From positions 1 through 64,000 of the forward strand of contig SGBB01000011.1 in assembly GCA_004195025.1 (NCBI GenBank): a DNA stretch of 64,000 bases, written 5' to 3'. Source of the stretch: Candidatus Acidulidesulfobacter diazotrophicus (GTDB lineage Bacteria; SZUA-79; Acidulodesulfobacterales; Acidulodesulfobacteraceae). The position numbers and the translations under genes were made by a program. Each line of letters starts with the position of its first letter. The stretch's first letter is position 1. This document shows positions 325-44,953 of this stretch, piece by piece. The notes under the pieces were generated by a model, which saw only the letters and a list, made by a program, of their open reading frames with translations, was not told where the DNA came from and did no database searches.

Positions 325-2151
325 TTACCATCCATAACTAAACCCTGCCGCCGCTGCAGTATCAGCATTGCCGCCGCTAACATTGATAGCAATCGATACG
401 CCTCCAGTCCAATTACTGTTAATGCGATGTTGATAGCTAACCGCGATAGAGGTTTGACCTCCATATTCGGCAGTTGCACCCGCAATACTGTTAGATTTTG
501 GATTGGCAGCAGCCTGTGCCGCGGCTTCTGCAAGTGATGCGTCTATAGAACCCACTTTCATAGAGTAATTTTCAGCTTGGCCTAAAGTATTATTAATGGC
601 TCCTTGTAATTGACTAAGATTAACTGCATCATTTGGCATTGTTCCAGGCGCGACATTAGTAATCTGGCGCGTTAGACCATTGGATGTGTTACCAACGCTA
701 ACAGAATTAGCGCGATTAGCCACTGACCCTTGTCCTAATGCAACTGAGTTGACACCATTGGCTGTAGAATTAGCTCCTATAGCAACGCTGTTGTTGGCAT
801 TGGCAACTGCGTTGCTGCCAACTGCAGTTGTAGGATCTGCAAGAGCCTTGGCGCCATTACCGATAGCTACCGACCCAGCGTAATCGGCTGTAGCGCCGTT
901 ACCCTCGGCTATAGTGTTATTTCCGTTAGCACTGGCTCCGTTGCCTTGAGCAAGAGCGTTATTTCCTACTGCTTTAGCTCCTGTTCCGCATTGCAATGCT
1001 CCATTAGTGACGGTGCAGATGCCGGCTTTCCCGTTCACAATGGCTTGGATGGTGACGGTATTAGTAGTCTGTTGGGTACCGAGACTTGAGATATTGGCAG
1101 TATTTGCAGCAATATTATTCACGTCCTTAGTCTGCTGGTTGCCCTGGTTAGTGATAGATGTTTGATCAGCTGTTTGTCCTTTCTGGATAGTGCTGATATT
1201 GCCTTTATCGGCTGTCTGTTGGGTACCGAGACTTGAGATATTGGCAGTATTTGCAGCAATATTATTCACGTCCTTAGCCTGCTGTTTGCCCTGGTTAGTG
1301 ATAGATGTTTGATCGGCTGTTTGTCCTTTCTGGATAGTGCTGATATTGCCTTCGTTGGTAGTCTGTTGGGTACCGAGACTTGAGATATTGGCAGTATTTG
1401 CAGCAATATTATTCACGTCCTTAGTCTGTTGGGTATTGGTAGCGTTGAGCTGGCTACCGTTGACTGCATCGGTACTGGTGCTGTTGATCGCTCCCGCAGT
1501 AACGTTGGTAATGGTGCGGGTTTGACTGCTGCTTCCCACGCTAACCTCATTACTGCCAGTAGCTAACGAGCCTTGACCAAGAGCTACAGAGTTATTTGCC
1601 CCGGCATTGATTCCACTATTTGCACCCAGAGCCGTGTTATTTCCGCCAGGTATTCCACTTCTTACAGATGTGGAGGCATAAGTGCCGAGCGCAACATCAT
1701 AGGTCCCGCTGGCCGTACTGTAGGCCCCGCTGGCCGTACTGCCGGCCCCGCTGGCCGCGCTGTCGTACCCGCTGGCCGTACTGCCGTCCGCGCTGGCTGT
1801 GCTGTCGTACCCGCTGGCCGTGCTGCCGGCCCCGCCGGCCGCGCTGGCTGTGCTGCCGTCCCCGCACGCCACGTTATAATAATTAATGTCCTGCGCGCAA
1901 ACTCCGTTCGTCGCTCCAGTTCCGGTTCCACCGCTAACCGCCCAAGCGGCGCCGCTCCAGTTTATGACGCACGCAACCGCCAGCGTTATGAGCAGTTTAT
2001 GTATGGCTTGTGAAAAAAAAGTCCGATCATTTGGGCGGTTAGAAGACCCTCGCGTCGCAGATTGTTTTTTGCCTATGCCAGAGGCAATTTTTGAGGCCGC
2101 GGTTATTTTTTCCGATAGAAAGTTTAAAACTAACTTACATAAATAATACAT
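325..2151 (-). CDS. YadA-like trimeric autotransporter adhesin
   Basis: A 608-residue surface adhesin. A long N-terminal extension precedes a hydrophobic core ending in WSGAAWA, as in the extended signal peptides of type Vc autotransporters. Next come a head of short STASG-type repeats (about 95-150), a second set of left-handed head repeats with SVALGQGS and SVAIGANS motifs, and a coiled-coil stalk made of 49-residue repeats. A neck (ITNVAPGT...DAVNLSQL) and a YadA anchor ending in the aromatic YGW close the protein. A GGAGG site 5 nt upstream supports the start. The gene sits next to an IS256 end, and its base composition is far more GC-rich than its neighbours, especially at 1741-1860. Both suggest horizontal acquisition. 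The function, trimeric adhesion to surfaces or cells, is inferred from the family; the ligand is unknown. Confidence 0.9.
   Translation of the reverse strand: MYYLCKLVLNFLSEKITAASKIASGIGKKQSATRGSSNRPNDRTFFSQAIHKLLITLAVACVINWSGAAWAVSGGTGTGATNGVCAQDINYYNVACGDGSTASAAGGAGSTASGYDSTASADGSTASGYDSAASGAGSTASGAYSTASGTYDVALGTYASTSVRSGIPGGNNTALGANSGINAGANNSVALGQGSLATGSNEVSVGSSSQTRTITNVTAGAINSTSTDAVNGSQLNATNTQQTKDVNNIAANTANISSLGTQQTTNEGNISTIQKGQTADQTSITNQGKQQAKDVNNIAANTANISSLGTQQTADKGNISTIQKGQTADQTSITNQGNQQTKDVNNIAANTANISSLGTQQTTNTVTIQAIVNGKAGICTVTNGALQCGTGAKAVGNNALAQGNGASANGNNTIAEGNGATADYAGSVAIGNGAKALADPTTAVGSNAVANANNSVAIGANSTANGVNSVALGQGSVANRANSVSVGNTSNGLTRQITNVAPGTMPNDAVNLSQLQGAINNTLGQAENYSMKVGSIDASLAEAAAQAAANPKSNSIAGATAEYGGQTSIAVSYQHRINSNWTGGVSIAINVSGGNADTAAAAGFSYGW
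1071..1428 (-). repeat. 147-bp tandem repeats in the adhesin stalk
   Basis: The sequence starting GTTGGGTACCGAGACTTGAG occurs at 1071, 1218 and 1365, an exact 147-bp spacing. This gives two full units and a partial third, nearly identical at the DNA level. Each unit encodes 49 residues, exactly seven heptads, so copy-number change would lengthen or shorten the coiled coil without breaking register. Confidence 0.9.
1709..1864 (-). repeat. 21-bp GC-rich tandem repeats in the adhesin head
   Basis: Seven 21-bp units beginning CTGGCCGTACTG or CTGGCTGTGCTG start at 1709, 1730, 1751, 1772, 1793, 1814 and 1844, with a 9-bp irregular spacer at 1835-1843. Each encodes a 7-residue head unit of the STASGxx type. 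By hand count, 95 of the 120 bases in 1741-1860 are G or C (79%), in a window that is otherwise strongly AT-rich. Confidence 0.9.
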
Positions 2152-3319: not shown

Positions 3320-3574
3320 ATGGAAATTGTGAATTTTACCGAAGCTAGAAATAATCTGAAATCTATCTTAGATAGAGTATATGAAAATAATGAAGAAATT
3401 ATTATTTTTAGAAAAAACGGGCAGAGTTTTGTTATTTCGAATTTAAGCGATTACAATGCGCTTAAAGAAACTAAATATCTATTATCTAATCCGCATAATA
3501 AAGAAAGACTGCTGTCGTCATTGAAACATGCTAAAGAAAGAAAGACTTTTGAAAAGAAGCTTATAAGTGATTAA
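3320..3574 (+). CDS. yefM: YefM/Phd-family antitoxin
   Basis: This 84-residue protein starts MEIVNFTEARNNLKSILDRV, the typical Phd/YefM DNA-binding N-terminus. A short FRKNGQSFVISNLSDYNAL segment and a charged C-terminal tail, the toxin-binding part, follow. It should neutralise the YoeB-like toxin encoded directly downstream and repress the operon through the 38-bp palindrome upstream. A GAGG site (AATATAGAGGT) precedes the ATG. It lies in an accessory island with a restriction enzyme and an IS end. Confidence 0.9.
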   Translation: MEIVNFTEARNNLKSILDRVYENNEEIIIFRKNGQSFVISNLSDYNALKETKYLLSNPHNKERLLSSLKHAKERKTFEKKLISD

Positions 3575-3578
3575 AATT

Positions 3579-3833
3579 ATGAATATTCTTTTTACTGACG
3601 AATCATGGGAAGATTATATTTATTGGCAAAAAACCGATAAAAAGATGCTTAAAAGAATTAATGAAATTATAAAAAACATAAAAAGAGATCCCTATAATGG
3701 CATAGGAAAACCCGAGATTCTTAAATATGAACTTCAAGGGTGCTGCTCAAGAAGAATAAACGAAGAGCATAGGATTGTTTATAAAATAGATGAAAATATC
3801 ATAATAATAATTCAATTGCGTTATCATTACTAA
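3579..3833 (+). CDS. yoeB: YoeB-family mRNA interferase toxin
   Basis: An 84-residue RelE-superfamily ribosome-dependent endoribonuclease. From the ATG at 3579 the length and numbering match E. coli YoeB exactly: Glu46, Arg65, His83 and Tyr84 are all present, and the protein ends RYHY. An in-frame GTG at 3567 would overlap the antitoxin by 8 bp and add four residues. The homologous numbering argues for 3579, but coupled initiation at the GTG is possible. All known catalytic residues are intact, so the toxin is probably active when freed from its antitoxin. Confidence 0.92.
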   Translation: MNILFTDESWEDYIYWQKTDKKMLKRINEIIKNIKRDPYNGIGKPEILKYELQGCCSRRINEEHRIVYKIDENIIIIIQLRYHY

Positions 3834-3966: not shown

Positions 3967-6900
3967 ATGTTGTCAGATATTTTAGAACGTATTAAAAGTA
4001 ATTACGCAGATAAAGATTATAATACGGAAAGAGATAAAGGCACTGCTTTTGAAAAATTAATAATTAAATTCTTAAAAACAGATCCCTTATATAATCAAAA
4101 ATATAAAAACATATGGATGTGGGGGGATTGGGCAAAACTCTTTTCCGAATATAATTTTAGCGCAAAAGACACAGGTATAGATTTAGTAGCTCAGGATAAT
4201 AATAATGAATTTTATGCTATCCAATGTAAGTTTTATAGCGAAGAACATATATTAAAAAAAGAAGACATAGACTCATTTTTTACATTATCGGGCAAAAAAC
4301 CCTTTACGGAAAGAATAATTGTCGTTACGACAAACAGTATAAGCGATAATGTTGTTACATCGCTTGATAACCAAACTATACCCGTAAATATTATTACCCT
4401 TAATGATTTAGAAAATAGTTCTATAGATTGGCTTAAATTTGATACAAATAATATTGAAATACTGCCTTTAAAATCCAAAAAAACAATAAGGCCGCACCAG
4501 CAAGAAGCATTAGGAAATGCGATAGATTATTATAAAATCAATAATAAAGGCAAGCTTATTATGGCTTGCGGAACGGGGAAAACTTATGTATCGCTTAAAA
4601 TAGCGGAGGCCATAACTCCAAATAACGCGGTTGTTTTATTTTTAGTTCCGTCGTTGTCCCTTTTATCTCAAACTTTAAAAGAGTGGAATTATGAAGCTGA
4701 AAGTCCCATAATTTCATATGCCGTATGTTCGGATTCAAAAATAGGAAAAGACAGCGAAGATATGAAAGTCCACGAATTAAGCTATCCTGCCACAACCGAC
4801 GCCGACAAATTGGTAAAAAGTTTTAACGACACCAAATCAAACAATCAAAGAACTGTAATATTTTCAACATATCAATCGTTAGACATTATTCAAAAAGCTC
4901 AGGTAAAAGGTTTGCCTGAATTTGATTTAATAATTTGCGATGAAGCGCATAGAACAACGGGCATTATAAATAATAAAATTGCTTTAAACAAAACAGGCGA
5001 AATAAAAGACGATTCTAACTTTGTTTTAGTTCACGATAATAATAAAATTAAAGCTAAAAAAAGAATGTATATGACGGCGACGCCGAGAATTTATAGTCCA
5101 AACGTAACAAAAATAGCGCAAAGAAGAGAAATAGAATTATGTTCTATGGATAATCCAGAAATATACGGAGACACGATATATCAGTTGAGCTTTTCAAAAG
5201 CTGTCGAAGAAGGATTGTTGTCCGATTATCAGGTTTTAGTATTAATGGTTGGGGGTAATTATATTAACGAAAGCATGCAGTCTGAATTAACAAATAATGA
5301 CAATGAATTAAAGTTAGGGGATTTAGCAAAAATAGTCGGCTGTTATAACGGACTTGCTAAAAAAGTAAACGAAACGGAAATATATTTTGACAAAAATCCT
5401 ATGAAAAGAGCTGTTGCGTTTGCCGGTTCCATTGATTATTCACAAAGAATATCTAAAGAATTTAGAAATATAACGGATAAGTTAGGCGATTTAAAATGCG
5501 AAACAAGGCATATAGACGGAACCCAAAACGTGTTAGAAAGGAATCAGGAGTTAGATTGGCTGAGAGACGCAGTGCCAGATAACGAATGCAGAATACTGTC
5601 AAACGCAAGATGTTTATCGGAAGGCGTCGATGTTCCAGCATTGGACGCGGTAATGTTTTTAAATCCAAGAGACTCCGAAATCGATATAGTTCAATCCGTT
5701 GGTAGAGTCATGAGAAAATCGGAAGGCAAAAAATTCGGATATATTATATTGCCTGTTTTTATACCAACTGCCGAAAATCCCCAGGAAGCCCTTAAGGATA
5801 ATAAAAAATATGAAATTATATGGAAAACATTAGAAAGTCTAAGAGCGCATGACGAGAAAATGGACAGAGAAATCAATCAATTAAAATATAACGGACAAAG
5901 CGACAGAGTTCATATAATAGGAACAGGCGTCAGCATATCTAAAGAGCAACCCGGCTTTGATTTTCCCGAAGATGAAATTAAATTATGGAAAGATGCGATA
6001 AGGGTTAAAATAGTCGAAAAATGCGGAGATAAAGAGTATTTAAGAAACTGGACGAAAGACATAATAGATATAATGAATATTCATATAGAAAGAATTAATT
6101 TTATACTCAAGGATAATGAAAAAGATAAGCAAGAATTTGATAATTTTTTATCGGAATTAAGAAACAACGTCAGCCCCGTTATATCGGAAGAAGACGCTAT
6201 TATTATGTTATCCCAGCATTTAATCACAAAACCCGTCTTTGATACGCTTTTCAGTTCTGAATTTGCTAAATACAATCCGGTGTCTATGGCAATGGATAAA
6301 ATGATAGCGGTATTGGACGAGAAAGGCTTAAAAAACGAGACAAAAAAATTAGAAAAATTTTATGAAGCTGTTAAAAATAAAGTCAGCGCCGTTAAGAATT
6401 TTAACGATAAGCAAAAAATAATAATAGAACTTTACGATAATTTTTTCAGTCAAGCTAATCCGAAATTATCGGATAAATTAGGAATAGTTTATACTCCCGT
6501 TGAAATAGTTGATTTTATCGTTAATAGCGTTGAATATATTTTAAATAAAGAATTTGACACAAAATTAGAGAATGAAAACGTTCATATATTGGACCCGTTT
6601 ACGGGGACGGGAACATTTATAACGAGATTATTGCAAAACGGCATTATAAGCCCCGATAAATTAGAAAATAAGTATAAAAATGAACTGCATGCTAATGAAA
6701 TTATGCTATTGGCTTATTATATCGCCGCTATTAATATAGAGGAAACTTATCACAATATAAATAAAGAAAAAGAATATGCGCCGTTTAAAGGTATAGTTTT
6801 AACCGATACGTTCAGGCTATTAGAAGACGAATACAGGGAACAGCAGGAACAGTATCACGGTTCTACCATTATAGACGAAGAAAGACTTTATCCGTTAAAA

Positions 6901-9450
6901 AGAAACAGCAAGAGGGCGTTAAAACAAAAGCAGCAGGATATAAGAGTTATTTTGGGTAATCCGCCGTATTCGTCAGGACAAAAAAGCGAAAACGATAATA
7001 ATAAAAGCGAAAAGTATCCCACTTTAGACAAAAAAATAAACGAAACATATGCTAAAAACTCTACTGCCAAACTCAAACAAACTTTATATGATTCTTATAT
7101 CCGCGCTTTCCGCTGGGCGACCGACAGAATTAAAGACAAAGGTGTCATATGTTTTATAAGCAACGGTTCTTATATCGATGGAAAAGCCCTCGACGGATTC
7201 CGCAAAAGCCTTTTCGATGATTTTTTGGCCGCTTATTGTTTTAATCTAAAAGGTAATTTCAGGAAATTCAATAAAGACGAAGGCGAAAATGTATTCGGCA
7301 ATAAATCTGGAACGACGATTGCTATAACCTTGCTAATAAAAAATCCGGTTAAAGAAAAAGCTATGCATATTTTTTATCATGAGATAGCCAAAAGTCTTAA
7401 AATGGATGAAAAATTGAGATATATTGCCAATTTAAAAAATATAAGCAATATCGATTGGCAAGAAATTATACCTAATGAAGCCCAAGATTGGATTAAACAA
7501 AGAAATGTCGTATTTTCTGATTTTATTCCTTTGGGTGATAAAACGGGAAAAGAAAACAAAACGATATTTAATATATATTCAATGGGCATTGCTGCAAAAA
7601 GAGATTCATGGGCATATAATTTTTCAAAAGAGAAACTTGTCGGCAATATTAAATCAATGATTGATTTCTATAACGGTGAAGTTGACAAATATATTAACGC
7701 AGATAATAAGTCTGAAAATATAGGTAGTTTTGTCAATAACGACCCTAGAAAAATCAGCTGGACGCGGGGACTTAAAACAAGATTAAAAAATAAGAAAAAA
7801 TTAGAATTCGATATAAATTCAATTAGTCAAACAATATATAGACCCTTTTGCAATCAATGGTTATATTATAACGGTACAAGAGAACTTAATGAAGAAATTT
7901 ACCAAATCCCTCAAATATTTCCGGATAAAAATTGTGAAAATTTAATAATTTGCATAGAAAATGATAATAAAATATTTTCGTCTATCATTGTAAATAAAAT
8001 TTATGATTTCCATATTTTTAGCTCAAGTCAAGGCTTCCCTCTATATTATTACGAAAAAAATACGGAATTAAAAGATGCAGAACTATTTGTCCATGAACAA
8101 ACACAAGATAATAGCGAATATACCCGCCACGATAATATTTCAGATGAGTTTCTAACTGAAATACAAGCGCAGTACAAGGATAACGCCATAACTAAAGAAG
8201 ATATATTCTATTACATATATGGGATATTAAATAATTCAGATTATAAAACGGCATTTGCTAACGATTTAACAAAAATGCTTCCGCGCATTCCGTTTATAAA
8301 GGAATTTAAAGAGATTAGCAAATTAGGTAAAGAACTTGCCGATTTACATCTTAATTACGAACAGGTTGAGCCTTATCCTATTATTGAAACAGTTTCGGAT
8401 AAGGCAAAAGATTTATCCAAAGACAAACTTTATTATATCAATGAAATGAAATTCGGCAAGATTGGTAAAGAAAAAGATAGGTCTGTTATTATTTATAATG
8501 ATTATATAACATTGTCCGGAATACCGTTAGAAGCTTATAATTTTGTTGTAAACGGCAAGTCCGCCATCGAATGGATAATGAACAGGTATAAGGTTTCTAT
8601 TAATAAAGACAGCAAAATTAAAAACGACCCTAACGATTATTTAGAAGAAATTCAAGATTACAAATATATCGTCAACTTATTAAAAAAGATAATAAATGTG
8701 AGCGTTAAATCAGTCGGCATAATTTCGGAATTATCAAAATATTCAATATTGGATAATGAAGATAAAATAAACGAAAATGGTTCTGAAAAAGTTATTTATT
8801 TAAACGATATTATATCTAATCAAAATTCGGATAAAGATATTAATATTGGCATTGACATTGAAGAAATTATAGATGAAAACCAAAAATACGTAGAATATCT
8901 TCCTATATATTCTTTAGAAGCCGCCGCATCCGGTTTTAGCGGCGAACAGCATGTAGAAACGCTCGGATGGAAAAAAGTTAATTTTTCAAATTATAAAGAT
9001 TCAAATTATAATAAATTTAATTCTAACAATTTATTAAATTCATTGCCATTGCCAAACAAGATTAAACTTAGTAAAGATATGTTTATAGCAAAAGTCGTCG
9101 GTAAATCTATGGAGCCGACAATACCTGATGGCAGTTATTGCATATTCCGTTTTGAACGCGGCGGTTCCCGCGACGGAAAAGTTGTGCTTGTAGAATCAAG
9201 AAAGGTCTCGGACACGGAAACAAATCAGAAATATACCGTAAAAAGATATAGGAGCGAAAAGGTGAATACAGATTATAGTCTGGATTCCCGCTTTCGCGGG
9301 AATGACAATGAATATGCGGAAGAAGGCGAACGCTGGGTGCACAAACGGATAATTCTTTCTCCCGACAATAAAGATTTTGACGATATTATCCTTGAAAATG
9401 TTTCTGAAGACGATTTTAAAGTAATTGCAGAATTTGTATCCGTTATTTAA
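3967..9450 (+). CDS. Single-chain (type ISP-like) restriction-modification enzyme with C-terminal S24 peptidase domain
   Basis: An 1827-residue multidomain protein. An N-terminal Mrr-like nuclease has Asp72 and the Gln86-x-Lys88 motif (IQCK). A superfamily 2 helicase/translocase follows, with Walker A CGTGKT (201-206), DEAH (325-328), MTATP (369-373) and a motif VI segment SVGRVMRKS (about 577-585). An N6-adenine methyltransferase has DPFTGTGTF (876) and NPPY (998-1001), then a region likely to recognise target DNA. This order matches LlaBIII-type ISP enzymes. From about residue 1645 an extra LexA/UmuD-like S24 domain carries GKSMEPTIPDG with Ser1714 and TVKRYR with Lys1759, the Ser-Lys dyad. 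A palindromic repeat is inserted in frame at 1772-1781. It stands alone, with a terminator after it. Restriction of unmodified phage DNA is the likely role; the S24 domain's job is unknown. Confidence 0.9.
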   Translation: MLSDILERIKSNYADKDYNTERDKGTAFEKLIIKFLKTDPLYNQKYKNIWMWGDWAKLFSEYNFSAKDTGIDLVAQDNNNEFYAIQCKFYSEEHILKKEDIDSFFTLSGKKPFTERIIVVTTNSISDNVVTSLDNQTIPVNIITLNDLENSSIDWLKFDTNNIEILPLKSKKTIRPHQQEALGNAIDYYKINNKGKLIMACGTGKTYVSLKIAEAITPNNAVVLFLVPSLSLLSQTLKEWNYEAESPIISYAVCSDSKIGKDSEDMKVHELSYPATTDADKLVKSFNDTKSNNQRTVIFSTYQSLDIIQKAQVKGLPEFDLIICDEAHRTTGIINNKIALNKTGEIKDDSNFVLVHDNNKIKAKKRMYMTATPRIYSPNVTKIAQRREIELCSMDNPEIYGDTIYQLSFSKAVEEGLLSDYQVLVLMVGGNYINESMQSELTNNDNELKLGDLAKIVGCYNGLAKKVNETEIYFDKNPMKRAVAFAGSIDYSQRISKEFRNITDKLGDLKCETRHIDGTQNVLERNQELDWLRDAVPDNECRILSNARCLSEGVDVPALDAVMFLNPRDSEIDIVQSVGRVMRKSEGKKFGYIILPVFIPTAENPQEALKDNKKYEIIWKTLESLRAHDEKMDREINQLKYNGQSDRVHIIGTGVSISKEQPGFDFPEDEIKLWKDAIRVKIVEKCGDKEYLRNWTKDIIDIMNIHIERINFILKDNEKDKQEFDNFLSELRNNVSPVISEEDAIIMLSQHLITKPVFDTLFSSEFAKYNPVSMAMDKMIAVLDEKGLKNETKKLEKFYEAVKNKVSAVKNFNDKQKIIIELYDNFFSQANPKLSDKLGIVYTPVEIVDFIVNSVEYILNKEFDTKLENENVHILDPFTGTGTFITRLLQNGIISPDKLENKYKNELHANEIMLLAYYIAAINIEETYHNINKEKEYAPFKGIVLTDTFRLLEDEYREQQEQYHGSTIIDEERLYPLKRNSKRALKQKQQDIRVILGNPPYSSGQKSENDNNKSEKYPTLDKKINETYAKNSTAKLKQTLYDSYIRAFRWATDRIKDKGVICFISNGSYIDGKALDGFRKSLFDDFLAAYCFNLKGNFRKFNKDEGENVFGNKSGTTIAITLLIKNPVKEKAMHIFYHEIAKSLKMDEKLRYIANLKNISNIDWQEIIPNEAQDWIKQRNVVFSDFIPLGDKTGKENKTIFNIYSMGIAAKRDSWAYNFSKEKLVGNIKSMIDFYNGEVDKYINADNKSENIGSFVNNDPRKISWTRGLKTRLKNKKKLEFDINSISQTIYRPFCNQWLYYNGTRELNEEIYQIPQIFPDKNCENLIICIENDNKIFSSIIVNKIYDFHIFSSSQGFPLYYYEKNTELKDAELFVHEQTQDNSEYTRHDNISDEFLTEIQAQYKDNAITKEDIFYYIYGILNNSDYKTAFANDLTKMLPRIPFIKEFKEISKLGKELADLHLNYEQVEPYPIIETVSDKAKDLSKDKLYYINEMKFGKIGKEKDRSVIIYNDYITLSGIPLEAYNFVVNGKSAIEWIMNRYKVSINKDSKIKNDPNDYLEEIQDYKYIVNLLKKIINVSVKSVGIISELSKYSILDNEDKINENGSEKVIYLNDIISNQNSDKDINIGIDIEEIIDENQKYVEYLPIYSLEAAASGFSGEQHVETLGWKKVNFSNYKDSNYNKFNSNNLLNSLPLPNKIKLSKDMFIAKVVGKSMEPTIPDGSYCIFRFERGGSRDGKVVLVESRKVSDTETNQKYTVKRYRSEKVNTDYSLDSRFRGNDNEYAEEGERWVHKRIILSPDNKDFDDIILENVSEDDFKVIAEFVSVI
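9279..9308 (+). repeat. Palindromic repeat inserted in frame in the S24 domain
   Basis: The sequence contains GGATTCCCGCTTTCGCGGGA followed by ATGACA, a perfect 8-bp stem with a 4-nt loop. It is the same repeat family found between genes at about 36034-36122, 44862-44953 and 59207-59237. Here it encodes LDSRFRGND inside the domain, between the catalytic Lys1759 and the C-terminus. Confidence 0.85.
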
Positions 9451-35960: not shown

Positions 35961-36169
35961 AATTGCCGATAGAAAATTTTATTCTGGATGACCGCTTCGC
36001 TCTCGTGCCTAACGACACTCGTGAAGTTTCCTTCGGAACTTTCCTGCTTACGCAGGAATGACTTTGCTGGGTTTTATCATTTCACCCTTTGGGTGTCATT
36101 CCCGCGTAAGCGGGAATCCAGTGTTATTAAAGCATTGGAGTATTTTTAACAATTTCTATCGGCAATTTT
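35959..36169. mobile_element. 211-bp non-coding element with 17-bp perfect terminal inverted repeats
   Basis: AAAATTGCCGATAGAAA (35959-35975) and TTTCTATCGGCAATTTT (36153-36169) are exact inverted repeats. The interior has no gene but holds several hairpins of the GGATTCC-type repeat family. The right end recurs as a 23-bp identical copy at 30492-30514. This has the form of a miniature transposable element or a composite repeat; no transposase is visible. Confidence 0.6.
36031..36122. repeat. Inverted pair of GGATTCC-type palindromic repeats
   Basis: A first hairpin (TTCCTGCTTACGCAGGAA, then TGAC) at about 36031-36052 faces a second (GTCATTCCCGCGTAAGCGGG, then AATCCAG) at about 36095-36121 in the opposite orientation. 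This is a REPIN-like doublet. Degenerate relatives extend left to 35982. Confidence 0.75.
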
Positions 36170-44861: not shown

Positions 44862-44953
44862 TCTGGATTCCTGCTTTCGCGGGAATGACACCCTATAAGT
44901 AAGTTAGAACTTGAATATTCCTAAAATCATTCCTGATTTTGCGTGAATCCAGA
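44862..44953. repeat. REPIN-like doublet in the thiS-thiG gap
   Basis: TCTGGATTCCTGCTTTCGCG, then GGAATGACA, at 44862-44890 faces a degenerate inverted partner (TCATTCCTGATTTTGCGTGA, then ATCCAGA) at 44927-44953. It belongs to the same family as 9279-9308, 36031-36122 and 59207-59237. The remaining 44633-44861 is AT-rich with short direct repeats and no gene. Confidence 0.75.

Follow-up and report, generated by a model that had tools for sequence, protein, structure and literature searches.

A swappable S24 domain at the C-terminus of a type ISP restriction enzyme, a possible RecA-triggered self-cleavage fuse of DNA-restricting enzymes

The window, a stretch of 64,000 nucleotides from Candidatus Acidulidesulfobacter diazotrophicus, encodes a type ISP restriction-modification enzyme whose chain ends in an S24 domain of the LexA/UmuD type (Table 1). 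The S24 segment is a cassette which is swapped between unrelated enzymes. We propose that it represents a portable, RecA-triggered self-cleavage fuse on DNA-restricting enzymes, probably an off-switch followed by removal through ClpXP, and assign a probability of about 0.5 to this reading. Its computed basis comprises the S24 fold, the catalytic dyad, a conserved loop at LexA-like spacing in the relatives, purifying selection, the swapping of the cassette and the presence of the RecA, LexA and ClpX genes.

The enzyme is encoded by a single open frame (ATG at 3967, stop at 9448-9450). Type ISP enzymes translocate at the expense of ATP and cleave once two of them have converged. In PMC4666363, type ISP enzymes are defined by an Mrr-family nuclease, an SF2 helicase-like ATPase, a coupler, a methyltransferase and a DNA-recognition domain in one chain, and the window protein contains this single-chain set according to Pfam order, phmmer and motifs. 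Within the motor, Pfam matches ResIII at residues 172-374 and Helicase_C at 475-584. The nuclease motif GIDLV..IQCK, Walker A, DEAH and the methyltransferase motifs DPFTGTGT and NPPY are all intact in the 1827-aa chain. A phmmer search matched LlaBIII (4xqk) with E=0 over residues 19-1594, nearly the whole LlaBIII length, and LlaGI (5ffj) also with E=0. Like these two enzymes, the window protein has all domains in the same order within this range, with motifs intact. In contrast to LlaBIII, where the match stops at residue 1594, it goes on for ~190 residues which represent the S24 domain. The initial annotation of the frame at 3967-9450 as a type ISP-like enzyme is borne out by domain order, phmmer (E=0 to LlaBIII and LlaGI) and motifs. 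A YefM-YoeB toxin-antitoxin pair (window 3320-3833, +) is located directly 5' of the restriction gene. At 325-2151 (-) a repetitive, by eye YadA-like surface protein lies in a stretch of 49% GC, compared to ~30% GC for the window.

Table 1. Position of the restriction gene, its domains and the elements of its S24 tail in the window (aa, residues of the encoded protein).
Feature	Position	Strand	Basis or remark
Type ISP restriction-modification gene with C-terminal S24 domain, 1827 aa	3967..9450	+	Open frame, Pfam, phmmer
Mrr-type nuclease domain, aa 37-162	4075..4452	+	Pfam Mrr_cat_2 E 3e-42; GIDLV...IQCK motif intact
SF2 helicase-like motor, aa 172-584	4480..5718	+	Pfam ResIII, Helicase_C; Walker A ACGTGKT, DEAH
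ISP coupler domain, aa 691-811	6037..6399	+	Pfam ISP_coupler E 8e-40
N6-adenine methyltransferase region, aa about 812-1199	6400..7563	+	DPFTGTGT, NPPY; covered by LlaBIII alignment; bounds inferred from adjacent domains
Type ISP target recognition domain, aa 1200-1571	7564..8679	+	Pfam Type_ISP_C E 2e-102
S24 (LexA/UmuD-like) tail, aa 1639-1827	8881..9447	+	Pfam Peptidase_S24, AlphaFold model and Foldseek, relatives
Putative cleavage loop PIYSLEAAASGF, aa 1646-1657	8902..8937	+	Candidate scissile bond Ala1654-Ser1655 (Gly in most relatives)
Window-specific loop insertion of ~20-25 aa, behind the cleavage loop and before Ser1714; bounds approximate	8980..9051	+	P1-to-Ser spacing 60
Catalytic Ser1714 codon (GKSMEP)	9106..9108	+	Ser in 104/104 aligned tails
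Catalytic Lys1759 codon (TVKRY)	9241..9243	+	Lys in 104/104 aligned tails
In-frame palindromic repeat insertion, encodes SLDSRFRGND	9279..9306	+	Loop after Lys strand; absent from aligned relatives

Pfam places Peptidase_S24 (PF00717) at residues 1688-1763, above the cut-off, with E 1.8e-8 for the whole protein and 8.6e-11 for the isolated tail. The structure of the tail was modelled using AlphaFold with a 75-sequence alignment, from which two rows were left out, one of them from a plasmid record. The model has a mean pLDDT of 82; most core blocks exceed 90 and the loop insertions are poorly confident. Foldseek returned LexA, lambda CI and UmuD, including their RecA-filament complexes, as the best PDB fold matches (best E 3e-5). 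The probability to LexA, CI and UmuD is 1.00. TM-scores, scaled to the query length of 197 residues, are modest (~0.34-0.48), for which the insertions and the linker are at least in part responsible. By sequence, the 77-row tail profile detected no PDB chain at E 0.01. Hence the structural match rests on the model, and the tail represents a divergent S24 branch. Both Pfam PF00717 and Foldseek assign it the LexA/UmuD-like C-terminal beta fold (S24 peptidase fold). A chance S24-like match is ruled out by the Pfam hit above cut-off, the fold search and about 104 relatives. On the same evidence the C-terminal S24 domain recognised in the initial annotation is real, and structure model and Foldseek agree that the tail adopts the S24 fold.

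Autoproteolysis of LexA-type S24 proteins is stimulated by RecA-ssDNA. Self-cleaving LexA-type S24 proteins have a catalytic Ser-Lys dyad (PMC8565304). Ser1714 and Lys1759, originally read as this dyad from the window alone, turned out to be invariant in all 104 aligned tails. The patterns used for scanning held Ser or Lys, and none of them included the cleavage loop. The Lys pattern alone accounts for 52 loci, which all have the Ser, and the Ser pattern alone for 15, which all have the Lys. The conservation of the dyad is thus not made by the search patterns.

The putative cleavage loop is located upstream of the dyad. P1646, L1650, A1653, A1654 and F1657 are invariant in the 75 aligned tails. 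Behind the candidate bond, the P1' residue is Gly in 82, Ser in 16 and Thr in 5 of 103 aligned tails; the subfamily therefore mostly has Gly, whereas the window copy carries Ser1655. In the window's family Ser or Thr at this position is found on ISP, HsdR and Res chains alike. The spacing from A1654 to the catalytic Ser is mostly 35-42 residues in relatives and 60 in the window copy. LexA is cut at Ala84-Gly85 and uses Ser119 in its dyad, resulting in a spacing of 35 residues (PMC3834820). The segment LEAAASGFSGE had been suggested as the cleavage site beforehand: its position stands, given the conserved loop, but the candidate bond is Ala1654-Ser1655 and not Ala-Gly. Tail dN/dS is about 0.07-0.23 in the window clade, which indicates that the S24 domain is still under purifying selection. 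Taken together the tail resembles LexA, UmuD and lambda CI in fold, Ser-Lys dyad and upstream cleavage-site loop and, in the relatives, also in spacing. It differs from them by sitting behind restriction/defence enzymes instead of a repressor DNA-binding domain, by Ser at P1' in the window protein and by the divergent sequence of its branch.

Two insertions are peculiar to the window copy (Table 1). The palindromic repeat TCTGGATTCCCGCTTTCGCGGGAATGAC underlying one of them has 83 copies in the genome with up to 3 mismatches and 0 in a reversed-pattern control. Further window copies are located at 36095-36118 (-) and 44866-44889 (+). Both insertions fall in low-confidence loop segments of the model, whose core is confident.

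The tail is encoded in 14 of 30 genomes of the window's bacterial family and in 14 of 356 other sampled genomes (about 4%). A scan with one genome per species yielded at least 504 encoded relatives. The best 80 of these, ranked by similarity to one HsdR tail, were kept, and about 104 tails were analysed. Whole host chains were taken and their non-tail parts clustered by blastp; cluster representatives were checked against Pfam and PADLOC and the other members assigned by similarity to the representatives. Among the about 104 tails, 49 hosts are of HsdR type (a share inflated by the ranking against one HsdR tail), 18 are DruE-like and 14 are type ISP enzymes. Type III Res-like chains, another ResIII-domain group and IIG/DrmMI-like methyltransferase chains account for 3 each, HTH repressor-like proteins for 2, and single cases include a Schlafen-type helicase (L052). 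HsdM or HsdS was not found among the about 104 host chains. DruE-like chains are thus the second most frequent carriers (18 of about 104; representative L047 checked, PADLOC DruE models), whereas an S24 domain is not mentioned in the study on DruE of Druantia III (PMC13192584).

Homologues with the type ISP-then-S24 order which keep the dyad, as the initial annotation would expect, occur both within the window's bacterial family and in distant taxa. This order in other genomes rules out a unique fusion or an assembly artefact. One such chain (L111 2357-7453, +) shows a match to Y1_Tnp, an IS200-like transposase, at residues 670-746 between N6_Mtase and Type_ISP_C. In another genome (G011:C1 189661-194957) an ISP-S24 relative is interrupted near residue 240 and has an in-frame stop in its first part, hence this genome has probably lost the system.

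Almost all relatives have the tail at the C-terminus. Three ISP relatives (L088, L090, L129) have ~200 more residues after it. In L095 (6068-9679, +), which is one metagenome contig, the S24 domain follows the HsdR nuclease (residues 1-306) and precedes the SNF2 motor, and there is no copy at the usual place at the C-terminus. Cleavage in L095 would separate nuclease from motor and thereby sever the enzyme. Two XRE-type HTH proteins, L087 (6632-7465, +) and L094, contain the same S24 subfamily with an AAAG loop; L087 is encoded beside non-defence genes. In viral contigs the tail alone gave 0 matches and the alignment search 3 loci, and INPHARED phages gave 0. A viral origin was rejected on these counts, and the tail is not a common phage domain. 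Among plasmids, the search gave a single Halomonas record.

Swapping of the cassette is visible both in DNA and in the tail tree. Within the window's bacterial family, the tails of the ISP enzyme L035 and the HsdR protein L037 are 90% identical, those of the two ISP enzymes L035 and L036 only 67%. The only DNA common to the L035 and L037 genes is one segment of 510 bp (90% identical), which spans the tail and runs to about the stop codon. The ISP enzymes L033 and L036 have hosts with 86% and tails with only 71% identity. In the tail tree the window falls into a clade of 17 rows (SH-aLRT 99) mixing 9 ISP, 4 HsdR and 3 Res. The whole tree requires 28 changes of partner, where the lowest possible number is 9 and shuffling gives 50 on average. 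The partner type is thus partly inherited and was repeatedly changed. Moreover, the window's bacterial family also has ISP relatives without the tail (1576 and 1595 aa), one of them in a genome (G016) beside a tailed one.

The genome encodes RecA and ClpX. It also has a LexA gene (L140) with IAAGY at the cleavage position and a LexA/UmuD-like protein (L139) next to a UmuC-like polymerase; both are S24 proteins by profile, with the identity read from sequence. As RecA, LexA, an UmuD-like protein and ClpX are encoded, the parts needed for an SOS trigger are present. An SOS-coupled restriction system with RecA-dependent cleavage as trigger, the idea put forward initially, appears plausible at the level of sequence. 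The first reading was right on S24 identity, dyad and loop position; it was too narrow in treating the fusion as a type ISP oddity, and P1' in the window is not Gly. The Ala-Ser bond, the two tail insertions and the fact that the tail is common to many unrelated defence enzymes had escaped it.

For the proposed fuse we infer that the tail cuts itself, that RecA triggers the cut, that the cut turns restriction off and that ClpX acts afterwards. Damage to host or phage DNA would lead to RecA-ssDNA filaments, which would push the tail into a cleavable form. Ser1714 and Lys1759 would then cut the chain after ...LEAAA1654. This would release the S24 domain and leave an enzyme ending in ...YSLEAAA-COOH. 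Cut LexA exposes latent ClpX-recognition motifs and is then degraded by ClpX (PMC10584840). By analogy the ...EAAA end resembles the latent ClpX-recognition signal of cut LexA, such that ClpXP may remove the enzyme. The outcome would be that restriction is switched off, a cis-encoded restriction alleviation which would shield a chromosome whose sites are temporarily unmethylated while it is repaired.

A comparable outcome is described for EcoKI, where ClpXP eliminates HsdR if sites in the host DNA lack modification or are damaged (PMC4231737; review PMC12707154). Simple terminal degrons were ruled out in that case and the degron is still unsolved (PMC4231737). By analogy, the expected result would be the same for the fused enzymes, namely that the restriction subunit disappears upon damage or undermethylation of the host DNA. 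In contrast, no S24 domain is mentioned for EcoKI HsdR, whereas the fused enzymes would carry a built-in trigger. Such a trigger could serve type I, ISP, type III and Druantia systems alike.

The self-cleavage fuse is supported by the S24 fold matches, the dyad in 104/104 tails, the invariant loop residues and the LexA-like spacing. It is further supported by the partners being restriction/defence chains, by near-identical tails on unrelated enzymes and by the position of the domain in L095. Several observations argue against it. In the window clade Ala-Ser or Ala-Thr replaces Ala-Gly/Cys-Gly, which weakens the claim for the window copy; known LexA mutants at the P1' Gly include G85D (PDB 1jhf), and Ser is a milder change. 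The two insertions, one of them stretching the loop-to-Ser distance to 60, lie in a part where the model itself is weak and, together with the Ala-Ser bond, represent the main weakness of the proposal. Ala-Ala before the bond is found in LexA itself and is thus no proof of a degron in the fused enzymes. Since a C-terminal cut of an ISP enzyme removes the tail alone, the off effect needs a second step. Against an off-switch, destroying the type ISP chain also loses its methylase. The two tails of the same subfamily on HTH proteins show that the domain also occurs outside restriction enzymes.

Cleavage might as well work in the opposite direction. The tail would then hold the enzyme in an inactive state until phage replication or DNA damage leads to RecA-stimulated cleavage, which would remove the tail and activate restriction or suicide. 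Phage replication yields ssDNA and RecA filaments, and with a C-terminal tail, as in most relatives, the cut leaves the remaining enzyme whole. However, ISP and HsdR restriction must act on DNA entry, before replication. The existence of tail-less ISP relatives (1576, 1595 aa) implies that basal activity can be controlled without the tail, and a cut in L095 would split nuclease from motor. We consider such an on-switch unlikely, although DruE as a frequent partner acts on ssDNA-containing intermediates (PMC13192584). It appears similarly improbable that the domain is used without any proteolysis, as a RecA-filament or dimerisation module which targets the enzyme to phage replication/repair intermediates or pairs motors. 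S24 domains do dimerise, they bind RecA filaments (solved complexes are among the PDB fold matches), and the canonical P1' Gly is lost in the window clade. Yet a non-cleaving adaptor has no need for Ser, Lys and the cleavage loop, which are kept in all relatives, the window clade included.

For the window genome in particular, the tail could be a decaying passenger that lost its function after the P1' change and the loop and repeat insertions, the family being functional elsewhere. The two window-specific insertions and the Ala-Ser bond point in this direction; against them stand the intact frame, dyad and loop, a dN/dS of 0.09-0.20 to relatives and the location of both insertions in low-confidence loops around a confident model core, which makes decay quite unlikely. 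S24 domains of LexA and UmuD can cut in trans. Hence the released fragment might itself be the active product, competing with LexA for RecA or cutting partner proteins, with the enzyme as carrier only. The occurrence of the same subfamily on the HTH proteins L087 and L094 would fit, and PMC10584840 cites work on an enzymatic action of LexA and CI. We regard trans action as very improbable, as it offers no reason for the near-constant seat of the domain on large restriction/defence enzymes.

In the open-access literature we found no description of S24 fusions with restriction, HsdR, Druantia or type ISP enzymes. S24 or LexA is not mentioned in a 2025 R-M review, a 2026 BREX survey and a 2024 Dnd survey. 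The S24 domain and the restriction enzyme are each a known family, and their combined architecture is probably listed in domain databases. In its broadest form, our proposal would make the mobile S24 3' segment a general DNA-damage fuse across type I, ISP, type III, IIG/DrmMI-like and Druantia enzymes, targeted by the RecA filament, cutting itself and leading to removal of the enzyme; we hold this extension tentatively, at somewhat less than even odds. Damage or undermethylation of its DNA puts a host at risk from its own restriction systems, and the way in which EcoKI marks its restriction subunit for removal is still unsolved (PMC4231737). If the self-cleavage fuse is true, the S24 tail would be a built-in and transferable solution for removing restriction enzymes, and phage defence would be tied to the SOS state without transcription. 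Defence enzymes would then be direct clients of the RecA filament, together with LexA, UmuD and phage repressors.
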